Source: Candidatus Poribacteria bacterium (GTDB taxonomy: Bacteria > Poribacteria > WGA-4E > GCA-2687025). From it: a DNA stretch of 38,036 nucleotides. The position numbers were made by a program, and so were the translations under genes. The stretch covers positions 1 to 38,036 of the forward strand of contig VGLH01000022.1 of NCBI GenBank assembly GCA_016866785.1. Direction: 5' to 3'. Under the pieces are notes generated by a model, which saw only the letters and a list, made by a program, of their open reading frames with translations, did not search any database and was not told the DNA's origin. This document shows, one piece after another, positions 23,816 to 28,429 of the stretch. Position 1 is the stretch's first letter. Each line of letters begins with the position of its first letter.

Positions 23816-24373
23816 TCAGAAGATCAGGTGCGCCTCCCGATCCCAATCGCGGGCGAGCTCAGGATCATCGGCGCGGCGAAGCAGGCTGTAGTCGATGTAC
23901 GGGTACTTGAGCGCGTGACCGACATCGACGCTGTGGTCGCCGCGCTTCTCCCAGTAGACTGCCTGCACGGGCTGCAGATCGCTCGGCCGGTGGTCGGGAA
24001 TGGGCCGCGAGTCCGGGTCGGGCCCGCGCTGCGTCACCGTGACGTACTTCAGGAACGCGGTGCGGCACGATTCCGCCCACTCACTCAGTCGCGCTTCCAA
24101 CGCTTGGACATCCAACCGACGCAGCAGTCGGCTCAACCAGCCCTTGCAGGGAACGCGATCCTGGGTGAATCCCAACAATTCCAACAACTCAGTGCCGTAG
24201 TGAACTGTCCATTCCGACATCGCCGAATAAGAATAAGACGTGTAGCCGCACAGCGCCGCGACGCACATCATCAGAAGAAGAATGGCCCCCAGCGGATGGC
24301 GCTTGCCCTGTGGATGGTGCGGGTCGTCCACTTGTGCGTAGATGGCTCGTAGGGGAGCCCAATCGGGCCGCAT
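23816..24373 (-). pseudogene. ISAs1-type transposase, N-terminal domain only
   Basis: 185 residues. The first half matches the DDE_Tnp_1-associated N-terminal domain of ISAs1/H-repeat transposases: VDDPHHPQGKRHPLGAILLLMMCVAALCGYTSYSYSAMSEW, then RVPCKGWLSRLLRRLDVQALEARLSEW. The catalytic DDE domain that should follow (about 200 more residues, starting with VDGK) is absent. Instead the chain continues with about 90 residues (GPDPDSRPIPDHRP onward) that I do not recognise and that may be an out-of-frame or fused piece. The start has a strong GAGGAG-type ribosome-binding site. It is most likely a decayed IS copy, though a reused N-terminal domain is possible. Confidence 0.65.
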
Positions 24374-25865: not shown

Positions 25866-25987
25866 GATAGATGCGTGGGTCGTTGCCAGGGGTGGGTGCG
25901 CCCGCCGTGGCGTCCGTTCGACGAGCGATGGGACGCCGGAAAGCGCGCCTCGGAAATGAGCGTAACGCTCGTGCCAGGAGGGATGCA

Positions 25988-26617
25988 ATGCATCGTCGCT
26001 CACTCGCGTTGCTGCTGGGAGCCGCGTTCATCGTCGGGACGGCTGTCGCGACCGCTCAGGAAGCGCAGATCATCCTCGATGAGAACGTGGATGCGGTCAT
26101 CAAGAACCTGACCGGCGGGGAAGGCACGCCGAGCAAGTCGAACGACGCCTACAAGGGCAAGGAGTCGCTGTACGTCGGTTCGACGGGTGGTGACGGGCAG
26201 AAGTACAACGACAAGTACCCAGCCCTGTCCATCAAGATCGTCGAGGCGCCGAAGGCTGCGAACGAGTTCCGGTACGTCACGTGGGCTTGGAAGAAGGATG
26301 GCGGCAACGGCATCCAGCTCCAGATCCACGGGGTGCCCGACACGTGGGGCCACCGGTACCACGCGGGCCAGAACGTGAAGAACTGGAACCCGTCGCTGGA
26401 AGCGAACAAGGCGATCCCGGCGAGCTGGACGCTCGTGACGAAGGACCTCTTCAAGGACTGGAAGGCGTTCGAGGTCACCGGTCTCGCGTTCACGGCTTGG
26501 GACGGCAAGGGCGGCCTGTGGGATGTGCTCGCGTTCCACAAGAGCCCGACGCCCCCGACCGCAGTCGAGCCGGCTGGCAAGGCTGCGATCTCCTGGGCAT
26601 CGCTCAAGGCTGAGTAG
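25988..26617 (+). CDS. small secreted protein, tandem paralogue 1
   Basis: 209 residues with a signal peptide (MHRRSLALLLGAAFIVGTAVATAQ). I do not recognise a named family, but the protein shares most of its mature length with the next two genes: GGDGQKYNDKYPAL, EFRYVTWAWKK, IQLQIHG, the strict WGHRYHAG, NWNPS, SWTLVTKDLFKDWKAF and GLAFTAWDGKGGLWD. This beta-rich pattern resembles carbohydrate-binding jelly-roll domains in large secreted proteins of planctomycete-like bacteria, but that is recollection only. The last 17 residues, VEPAGKAAISWASLKAE, are the shared tail. ATG 25988 has CAGGAGGG upstream; the earlier in-frame ATG 25871 would bury the signal peptide. A hairpin follows at 26648. 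Confidence 0.8.
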   Translation: MHRRSLALLLGAAFIVGTAVATAQEAQIILDENVDAVIKNLTGGEGTPSKSNDAYKGKESLYVGSTGGDGQKYNDKYPALSIKIVEAPKAANEFRYVTWAWKKDGGNGIQLQIHGVPDTWGHRYHAGQNVKNWNPSLEANKAIPASWTLVTKDLFKDWKAFEVTGLAFTAWDGKGGLWDVLAFHKSPTPPTAVEPAGKAAISWASLKAE

Positions 26618-26688: not shown

Positions 26689-26731
26689 TTGCACATACAG
26701 CCTGGGATGAGACATGGAGAGGATCGAGCGA

Positions 26732-27418
26732 ATGGGTCTACGCGTACGGATTGCCGTGATCGCAGCGGTCGCCGCCGCATGCCTGATGGCGGTGTCTACG
26801 GGCGATGCGTTTGGACAGGCATCGTTCGTCATCGTCCACGACGAGCAGAGCGTCAAGGACCTGCTGCCCATCCTAACCGAGGGCGCAGGTGCGGCGTCGT
26901 TCGAGAAAGCGGATGTCTACAAGGACGATGGTGACGGCAAGGCAGCCTTGCTGGTCACCGGTGAGGGCGGCGACGGCCAGAAGTTTCGCACGTCCGTTCC
27001 AGGATGGGCGTGGAAGATCAAGAAGGACCCGAACCCCAAAGCGAAGGATGAGTTCCGGTACATCACGTTCGCTTGGAGGAAGGTCGGAGGCACGGGAATC
27101 CAGCTCCAGCTCCACGCTCCAGATGCGAACACATGGGGACACCGGTACCACGCCGGAGCTAACGAGAAGGGCTGGAACCCCTCCATCGAGATCGCGCCGA
27201 AGATTCCCGAACAGTGGGCGATCGTGACACGCGACCTCTTCACAGACTGGAAGGAGTTCACGCTGGATGGCATCGCCTTCACAGCGTGGAGCCTCAAGCA
27301 TGGTATCTGGGACCATGTTGTTCTGCATCAGACGGAGGAGGATCCACTCGGAGCGAAAGCCGTCGAGCCCAGCGGCAAGGCGGCGTCCGCGTGGGCACGT
27401 CTGAAGGTCGAACGCTAA
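26732..27418 (+). CDS. small secreted protein, tandem paralogue 2
   Basis: 228 residues with a signal peptide (MGLRVRIAVIAAVAAACLMAVSTGDAFGQA). Mature part: an N-terminal SFVIVHDEQSVKDLLPIL segment, then the shared core GGDGQKFRTSVPGWAW, EFRYITFAWRKVGGTGIQLQLH, NTWGHRYHAGANEKGWNPS, QWAIVTRDLFTDWKEF and GIAFTAWSLKHGIWDH. It ends in the common tail (VEPSGKAASAWARLKVER). Function unknown; the core looks like a ligand-binding domain. I chose ATG 26732 because GAGAGG precedes it; an in-frame ATG at 26714 would add six charged residues. It is separated from paralogue 1 by a hairpin and from paralogue 3 by a MITE-like element. Confidence 0.8.
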   Translation: MGLRVRIAVIAAVAAACLMAVSTGDAFGQASFVIVHDEQSVKDLLPILTEGAGAASFEKADVYKDDGDGKAALLVTGEGGDGQKFRTSVPGWAWKIKKDPNPKAKDEFRYITFAWRKVGGTGIQLQLHAPDANTWGHRYHAGANEKGWNPSIEIAPKIPEQWAIVTRDLFTDWKEFTLDGIAFTAWSLKHGIWDHVVLHQTEEDPLGAKAVEPSGKAASAWARLKVER

Positions 27419-27748
27419 CCACTCACTCCGTCGCGCCGTCGGTCCTAGTGGTCAGTTACTTTGGAGCTTTCGTCTTCCCCTCCACCTCAGTCCTCCCCCA
27501 CGCTCCGCGGGGAGGAGGCTATGTCCCTCCCCCTTGCATGGGGGAGGGTTAGGGTGGGGGTTGGACAAACCGACAAGTCACTGTCACTGACCACTAGGTG
27601 CCGGCGGCGCGCCACGCAACCACGGCTGAGGAACTGTCGCCCAAGCGCCTGACATTGGACTGCATCGGCTCCTCCCAGGTTCGCCGTCACGCGCGCACAT
27701 CTTCGCGGACGTGGGGAGTCCACGCCGCCCCAGCAGGAGGCAGGGCCC
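27419..27748. other. gene-free stretch between paralogues 2 and 3
   Basis: 330 bases with no plausible coding region. It contains the 155-bp inverted-repeat element (27444-27598) and then about 150 bases of ordinary sequence leading to the AGGAGG site of the next gene. I see no clear promoter in the second part. Confidence 0.6.
27444..27598. mobile_element. 155-bp MITE-like element with 13-bp terminal inverted repeats
   Basis: CCTAGTGGTCAGT at 27444-27456 is the exact reverse complement of ACTGACCACTAGG at 27586-27598. TA dinucleotides lie at both ends, as for IS630/Tc1-type elements that insert at and duplicate TA. The interior has two G/C hairpins: CCTCCCC/GGGGAGG (27492-27515) and CCCTCCCCC/GGGGGAGGG with loop TTGCAT (27525-27548), followed by AGGGTGGGGG. 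There is no ORF. This composition differs from its neighbours and matches a type of short palindromic repeat dispersed in many environmental bacteria. Confidence 0.65.
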
Positions 27749-28429
27749 ATGAGATACGCCCGACAACGCTTCCCGCACATCCTGACGGCTCTCGCGCTGT
27801 TCGCCAGCGCCGCGCTCTCCTCCCATGCGCAGCAGATCTTCGTCATCGCCCACGACGAGTCCACGAACGCGGCGCTCATCTCGACGTTCACCGGCGGCGA
27901 GGGGCAGGTGAGCCTCGAATCGAGCGACGTCTACACGGATGACAACGACCGCAAGTCCGCCATCCTCGTCACGGGAGCCGGCGGCGACGGCCAGCGGTAC
28001 CGCGACCGTATCCCCGGATGGGCGTTCAGCATCGTCGAGAAGCCGAACAAGGACTCGACGACCGAGTTCCGGTACATCACCTTCGCCTGGAAGAAGGTCG
28101 GCGGCACTGGGATTCAGCTCCAGCTCCACGGCGACCCCAACACCTGGGGCCACCGGTACCATGCCGGCGCCAATGAGAAGAACTGGAACCCGTCGATTCA
28201 GGTCAGCGCCAAGATCCCCGACAAGTGGACTCTCGTCACGCGGGATCTGTGGGCGGACTGGAAGTCCTTCGCTCTGACCGGCGTCGCATTCACGGCATGG
28301 AGCCTTCAGCACGGCATCTGGGATCACATGGTGCTCCACCAGACGCCCGGCGACCCGAAGCTGCCTCTCGCCGTGGAGCCGGCGGGGAAGGCTGCGACCG
28401 TCTGGGGATTGCTGCGGGCGGAGCGCTAG
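27749..28429 (+). CDS. small secreted protein, tandem paralogue 3
   Basis: 226 residues with a signal peptide (to about residue 28, ending SSHAQQ). It is closest to paralogue 2: FVIAHDESTNAALIST, GGDGQRYRDRIPGWAF, EFRYITFAWKKVGGTGIQLQLHG, PNTWGHRYHAGANEKNWNPS, KWTLVTRDLWADWKSF and GVAFTAWSLQHGIWDHMVLHQT. The tail is VEPAGKAATVWGLLRAER. The strongest invariant residues in the three proteins are WGHRYHAG, W-N-P-S, DL-x2-DWK and FTAW, good candidates for a binding surface. ATG 27749 is decided by AGGAGG upstream. A hairpin follows the stop. Confidence 0.8.
   Translation: MRYARQRFPHILTALALFASAALSSHAQQIFVIAHDESTNAALISTFTGGEGQVSLESSDVYTDDNDRKSAILVTGAGGDGQRYRDRIPGWAFSIVEKPNKDSTTEFRYITFAWKKVGGTGIQLQLHGDPNTWGHRYHAGANEKNWNPSIQVSAKIPDKWTLVTRDLWADWKSFALTGVAFTAWSLQHGIWDHMVLHQTPGDPKLPLAVEPAGKAATVWGLLRAER

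Follow-up and report, generated by a model that had tools for sequence, protein, structure and literature searches.

The 155-bp stretch at positions 27444-27598 of the window, by which we mean the whole analysed sequence of 38,036 nucleotides from a Candidatus Poribacteria genome, is with a probability of roughly 0.93 a non-autonomous MITE of the IS630/Tc1-mariner type that lies in an older tandem gene array and encloses two triplex motifs inverted relative to each other. As the preliminary description stated, its terminal repeats are perfect over 13 bp, with CCTAGTGGTCAGT at 27444-27456 and the exact reverse complement at 27586-27598, a TA is found at both ends, and strong internal palindromes are present. 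The repeat arms reach 16 nt at 94% identity. Since the bases beyond CTAG vary among copies, the transposed unit is set to 27448-27594, a MITE body of 147 bp that reads GTGGTCAGT...ACTGACCAC, is located between duplicated TAs and was inserted into a CTAG; within the family it belongs to type A. The inner C (27445) and inner G (27597) of the outer CC/GG belong to this CTAG target, and the outermost CC/GG pair of the window copy matches by chance; other copies possess C, G, T or A there. Comparison of the ends places the left terminal inverted repeat, GTGGTCAGTTAC, at 27448-27459 (+ strand) and the right one at 27583-27594 (- strand), and the sequence together with the end table gives the TA target duplications at 27446-27447, within C-TA-G, and at 27595-27596. 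It had also been stated that the element contains no ORF; machine-listed frames do overlap it, but there is no sign of coding.

A search of the element's own genome (G000, a 4.35-Mb MAG of 291 contigs) returned 31 matching places at an E value of at most 0.001, so that the second copies asked for at the outset do exist; 15, with the window copy among them, are near full length, and the other 16 are partial. The 14 other near-full-length copies show 89-94% identity, and two of the 15, on C198 and C223, have flanks in common, as if a single locus had been split over two contig ends. By eye, at least one recognisable IS630-type end was seen in 27 of the 31 places, in two of them weakly, and none at C119:9128, C139:332, C167:3284 and C44:25275. 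The ends differ from copy to copy within the genome. Type A, to which the window copy belongs, has TAGTGGTCAGT ends, and nine of its copies share a mean pairwise DNA identity of 94.7% (range 92.7 to 98.0%). Type B combines TAGTGGTCTGTCA-like ends with the same core as type A, type C has TAGTGGTCTGTCA-like ends around a different palindrome, GCTCCCGCGAAAGCGGGAGCC...ATTCCCGC (C14, C20, and also C57 and C119:7233, the latter two with only one end recognised), and type D has the core CCCTCACCC...CTCTCCC (C58, plus C41 with one degenerate end). At the same four type C loci (C14, C20, C57, C119:7233), the palindrome beside MITE-type ends also reads GCTCCCGCGAAAGCGGGAGCC...CCCGCTTTCGCGGG. An exact 31-base search of the named-genome contigs gave no match, and among 145 genomes, with up to five candidates scored in each, no near-identical MITE copy was found outside G000; the best MITE matches in G003, a Poribacteria MAG of the same family, reached 73%, 75% and, over the core only, 86%. 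G003 is very probably the MAG casp150-mb.226, as transposase places of the latter overlap those of G003 on equally numbered contigs (C240, C29). The IMG/VR entry IMGVR_UViG_3300020198_001872, listed there as viral, seems to be the MITE-bearing contig C141 itself, as it has equal length and an identical stretch of 3,156 bases.

The element is thus short, multicopy and provided with matching inverted ends, and the target duplication of an IS630/Tc1 MITE is evident both from the end table and from an empty site. Exact 8-base ends delimit 12 distinct elements; ten of these have TA at both ends, all ten as CTA...TAG, and the remaining two have TA at one end. If one mismatch per end is permitted (n = 19), both TAs are found in 13/19, CTA...TAG in 11/19 and at least one TA in 19/19, one TA being absent in 6/19; these counts omit one false second end at L036, and some of the loci came from search patterns that already contained one TA. 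The copy on C141 interrupts a type C palindrome at GGGAGCCTAGAGTC, in the CTAG of this palindromic repeat. A 28-base part of that palindrome occurs at 23 places of G000 within two mismatches (control 0), some of which read CCAG instead of CTAG. The C141 flanks, joined with one TA, were aligned to seven of these 23 repeat loci, and those on C20 and C51, the best across the junction, match as uninterrupted repeats over 79/82 and 78/83 positions. The empty site with a single TA that had been proposed as a check could therefore be found. In the parts of PMC2170065 covered, ISY100 is described as inserting almost only at TA, which it duplicates, and an entry in the reference list of that paper refers to the preference of IS630 for TA within CTAG. 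By analogy with the biochemistry of ISY100, we infer a cut-and-paste movement, in which an IS630 transposase supplied in trans would bind the GTGGTCAGT ends, excise the element and paste it into the TA of a CTAG, whereby the TA is duplicated. The transposase that moved the element was presumably of the IS630 type.

Remains of such a transposase are present in the same genome. A search of G000 with the DDE_3 profile pointed to two places. On C129, a C-terminal DDE_3 fragment (E 5.8e-14) is followed by the right end CAGTGGTCTGTTAC, and on C33 a solitary type A end, TAGTGGTCAGTGAC, is followed by a helix-turn-helix-like frame that by eye resembles the N-terminus of an IS630 transposase, with Pfam helix-turn-helix matches below threshold (best E 0.0009). 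Among the ends that adjoin transposase sequence, those of type A were seen only beside this short frame, which is under the Pfam cut-offs. G003 contains an IS630 of 1206 bp between TAGTGGTCTGTCAGG ends, the first 24 bases of which match the right end of a G000 type B MITE at 22/24 positions, as well as two-ended MITEs of this sort (L254, L257, L260). In that IS630, with its GTGGTCTGT ends, no single open frame spans the whole transposase. Ends common to the MITEs and to an IS630-family transposase element are accordingly found in the GTGGTCTGT ends with the 1.2-kb copy and in the DDE_3 remnant. The search for a full-length insertion sequence with the same ends, suggested in the preliminary description, was positive with one limit: a similar-ended 1.2-kb copy and remnants were recovered, but no intact IS630 with exact type A ends (GTGGTCAGT), the G000 relics being fragments. 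Copy number, the TA and CTAG at the ends, these IS630 remnants and the similar-ended copy, together with the empty site, bear out the assignment as an IS630/Tc1-derived MITE. G000 also carries a full-length IS630 of 1228 bp (L048 on C145, 146-1373) with other ends, TAGTACTCGGTTGCG, again in CTAG, whose frame is broken by one TAG, and near the gene array a DDE_Tnp_1-associated (PF13808) transposase fragment is encoded at 23816-24373 of the window on the - strand.

The internal hairpins, noted but not classified in the preliminary description, are identified by the pattern of their bases as two class II intrastrand triplex motifs (TM/PIT) in inverted orientation, in which each unit consists of a pyrimidine arm, a loop, a purine arm, 3 nt and a third strand of purines and T. 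The left motif (27480-27516, - strand) reads TCCTCCCC / GGGGAGGA / ctg / AGGTGGAG; it is degenerate in the window, where 7/8 triplets follow the rule, and has 9/9 in several other copies. The right motif (27525-27560, + strand) reads CCCTCCCCC - ttgcat - GGGGGAGGG - tta - GGGTGGGGG with 9/9 triplets, and its computed fold gives the stem only. In agreement with a third strand that mirrors the purine arm in G.GC, A.AT or T.AT triplets, A positions in the purine arm are opposite an A or T once the third strand is mirrored in 37/40 cases, against 7/40 when unmirrored; 5000 permutations of the third strand gave a mean of 23.8 and a maximum of 31, and 0/5000 were as good as 37. The register was here chosen from the stem alone, with a G-rich third strand required after exactly 3 nt, and the 23 distinct units come from 36 loci, scanned as a whole, that comprise MITEs of G000 and of the Poribacteria MAG casp150-mb.226, the C119/C139 backbone described below, Desulfobaccales and Methylocapsa; two of the 23 units (L010) belong to a neighbouring element. 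A wider and less clean set, with overlapping hairpin registers that are not independent, gave 105/163 mirrored against 28/163, with at most 84 reached in 2000 permutations, and a comparison made in a faulty register gave mixed numbers (A-triplets 32/71, cross-pairing of the two third strands with each other 129/189).

A G-quadruplex instead of a triplex as the reason for conservation of the G-rich strand seems fairly unlikely to us. The right unit, GGGGGAGGGTTAGGGTGGGGG, does possess four G-tracts, repeated archaeal G4 sequences next to a C-rich tract are described as folding as G4, hairpin or triplex in the parts of PMC8044849 covered, and Holder et al. (PMC4666352) note in the parts covered that competition by a quadruplex is conceivable, the CD spectra being alike. 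The same authors nevertheless concluded from CD and NMR that the E. coli motifs form a triplex in vitro. In the variants GGGGGAGGA-ttg-AGGTGGGGG (left unit) and GGGGGAAGG-tta-GGAAGGGGG (G003 units), both strands change together, GGG tracts are lost and the mirror rule is kept, which favours the triplex over the quadruplex, and the latter was rejected as the conserved structure. As for the triplex in the cell, Holder et al. 2015, who according to the parts of PMC4666352 covered found the motif in more than 260 prokaryote genomes, 23 times in MG1655, and with raised local variability at motif loci, saw no stable triplex by DMS footprinting in vivo, and the double-stranded motif remained duplex. 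The motif pair would be carried along at each move of the MITE; it may fold as a triplex in the cell or aid the spread of the element, for example by a triplex that could form on a single strand during replication.

A further possibility is that the hairpins serve to end transcription or to stabilise RNA past the second gene of the array, and that this function conserves the core. The element indeed starts 27 bp beyond the stop codon, and both strands fold better as DNA than shuffled sequences (z -2.3 and -3.1). There is no T-run after the hairpins, however, and a terminator needs no third strand that mirrors the stem. In the parts of PMC4666352 covered, Holder et al. moreover cite an earlier study without promoter or terminator activity of PIT motifs, and describe the distance of the E. 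coli motifs to genes as not fixed. We therefore regard this explanation as unlikely. An identity with a known RNA was rejected: for positions 27200-27900 of the window, Rfam gave six weak matches (E up to 1), each of them far under the gathering score.

Less probable still is that a RAYT (Y1) transposase moves the core as a REP or REPIN repeat, the IS630 ends being incidental. REPINs are pairs of REP sequences tagged with GTAG or GGAG beside a RAYT gene. The interior of the MITE is an inverted pair of hairpin units, G000 has one RAYT-like gene, and the same triplex pair is present in a second backbone of about 257 bp that is common to the copies on C119 (L018 1446-1705) and C139 (L079). The ends of this backbone are inverted, the right end of one matching the left end of the other at 32/35 positions; three of the four ends start with GTAG, followed by a GGCGGGTCTGAGACC-like stretch, and they resemble the palindrome GTAGGGGCGGGTCTGAGACCCGCCCCTAC, which is located inside the reading frame of the RAYT-like gene (L287 on C66, 1685-1713). 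One and the same triplex pair is thus found in IS630-type and REP-like backbones of a single genome, and it may have been captured by or exchanged between them. Against the involvement of a RAYT in the window copy stand the IS630-type ends of 27 of 31 copies (by eye), TA duplications and an empty site that coincide exactly with these ends, and the lack of the triplex motif in the 3,165 bases around the RAYT-like gene. Because the duplicated boundary is that of the IS630 ends, a RAYT is an improbable mover of the window copy, and membership in the REPINs was rejected, as it lacks such ends and its core does not occur in those 3,165 bases around the RAYT-like gene. For the first origin of the core, a REP/RAYT route is possible.

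The IS630-type MITE had been described as sitting exactly between two duplicated genes, with the suggestion that it mediated or followed their duplication. It does lie between paralogs, but the array has three members, at 25871-26617 (start codon uncertain), 26714-27418 (no Pfam match at E 0.01) and 27749-28429, all on the + strand, and the element separates the second from the third. The array gene is present in all six family genomes searched, G000 included, with two tandem copies in G002, four in G004 and six, one of them partial, in G005. MITE ends or cores were absent from the ten array loci scanned in these three relatives, and no MITE is found between the first and second window paralogs. 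In a tree, the second and third window genes are joined (97/93), apart from other genera, and their proteins share 60% identity, against a mean of 94.7% at the DNA level for nine MITE copies. The MITE copies are thus much more alike and probably much younger than the paralogs, and the MITE-free arrays together with this divergence argue for an insertion after the duplication; of the two options, it is the second that stands, and the element would have landed downstream of the second gene of an already older tandem array. That the MITE mediated the duplication of its neighbours, as its place between two paralogs grouped in the tree could suggest, was rejected and has hardly any probability left, given MITE-free tandem arrays in three other family genomes, the absence of a MITE between genes 1 and 2 and paralogs that are far more diverged than the MITE copies.

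With the IS630/Tc1-mariner MITEs, for which IS630 and ISY100 serve as references, the element shares the TA duplication, the preference for CTAG, the lack of coding capacity and short inverted ends that resemble those of IS630 elements in its own genome and family. It differs from them in its interior, which is an inverted triplex pair and not a recognisable piece of a transposase gene; other MITEs of G000 enclose a different palindrome between ends of this kind. With the TM/TMECO/PIT motifs, as characterized in the parts of PMC4666352 covered, it has in common the order of arm, loop, arm, 3-nt loop and mirrored purine third strand, TTA as second loop, and the occurrence as single motifs or inverted pairs in intergenic DNA, whereas here the motif lies between transposon ends and travels with them, and the third strands point outward, in contrast to the inward orientation in four of five E. 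coli TM pairs. REP and REPIN elements with a RAYT likewise consist of paired GC hairpins in many copies, but boundaries and TA duplication of the window element are those of IS630, and the REP-ended element with the same core is a separate one in G000. The repeated G4 sequences of Methanomicrobiaceae (PMC8044849) similarly have G-tracts beside a C-rich tract and alternative hairpin and triplex folds, but are archaeal, and transposon ends are not described in the part covered. The MITE alone is an ordinary new member of its family, and what is new is the cargo, the triplex pair. Among the papers returned by a survey confined to the open-access literature, no title or abstract opening mentioned triplex motifs inside MITEs, and a term search of a 2024 review of prokaryotic MITEs (PMC10969869) gave none of the whole words "triplex", "quadruplex" and "IS630".

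As a non-B-DNA repeat, the triplex motif is widespread in bacteria and has been tied to genome instability, and its vehicle is the question, the motif itself being general across bacteria. In the parts of PMC4666352 covered, Holder et al. do not explain its spread and report no association of the E. coli motif with transposons. A MITE that bears the motif between clean target duplications, together with separate MITEs in another phylum, offers a testable route of dispersal for some lineages, and in those lineages a part of the "instability" of the motif could be plain transposition. It also advises caution, as interior hairpins of bacterial MITEs may be shared modules and not remnants of the parent transposon.

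The breadth of the motif is apparent from searches with GGGGAGGGTTAGGGTGGGG, which at one mismatch was found in 28/386 genomes, 23 times in G000 (reversed control 2/386), and with an E. coli-type unit from the C58 element, which had matches in 5354/5426 E. coli genomes at E values up to 10, in 2143 of them with a match that covers 80% or more of the unit. A scan of the named genomes, run without a control pattern, for a CTAGTGGTC end 20-50 bases from the motif stem gave 10 stretches: four in casp150-mb.226, two each in Desulfobaccales and Methylocapsa, and one each in Mesorhizobium and Vogelbacteria. The Desulfobaccales MAG contains CTAGTGGTCTGTTTC with up to two mismatches 11 times (control 3), which correspond to ten distinct places as one element supplied both ends; six readable two-ended elements of 176-255 bp with CTAGTGGTC ends could be delimited; the motif is present in four of them (L276, L277, L279/L280, L285) and absent from two (L275, L278), and a DDE_3 profile search of this MAG gave no gene. 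In the two Methylocapsa copies the inverted ends are long (30/34 matching) and the right side is without TA, the Mesorhizobium stretch runs off its contig, and no right end was seen in the Vogelbacteria stretch. Five published motif pairs of MG1655 showed no IS630-type ends by eye, with two isolated end-like 9-mers within two mismatches, and at 60 motif loci from 17 other genomes a CTAGTGGTC-like 9-mer (one mismatch, about 510 bases) was found in 6/60, where we estimate about six by chance. The link of MITE and motif hence recurs in at least one other phylum and is far from universal. It is conceivable, if rather doubtful, that IS630-type CTAGTGGTC-ended small transposons, along with REP-type elements, are the vehicles of the triplex motif, that the pair is an interchangeable module which passed between unrelated backbones and so reached many phyla, and that solitary motifs as in E. 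coli are decayed or re-captured copies; the chance-level ends at the 60 loci led us to lower the weight of this general reading slightly. In G233 and G371 (L162-L179), several triplex pairs instead have common outer flanks of a CGTTCA type (by eye), which suggests a separate repeat unit of their own.
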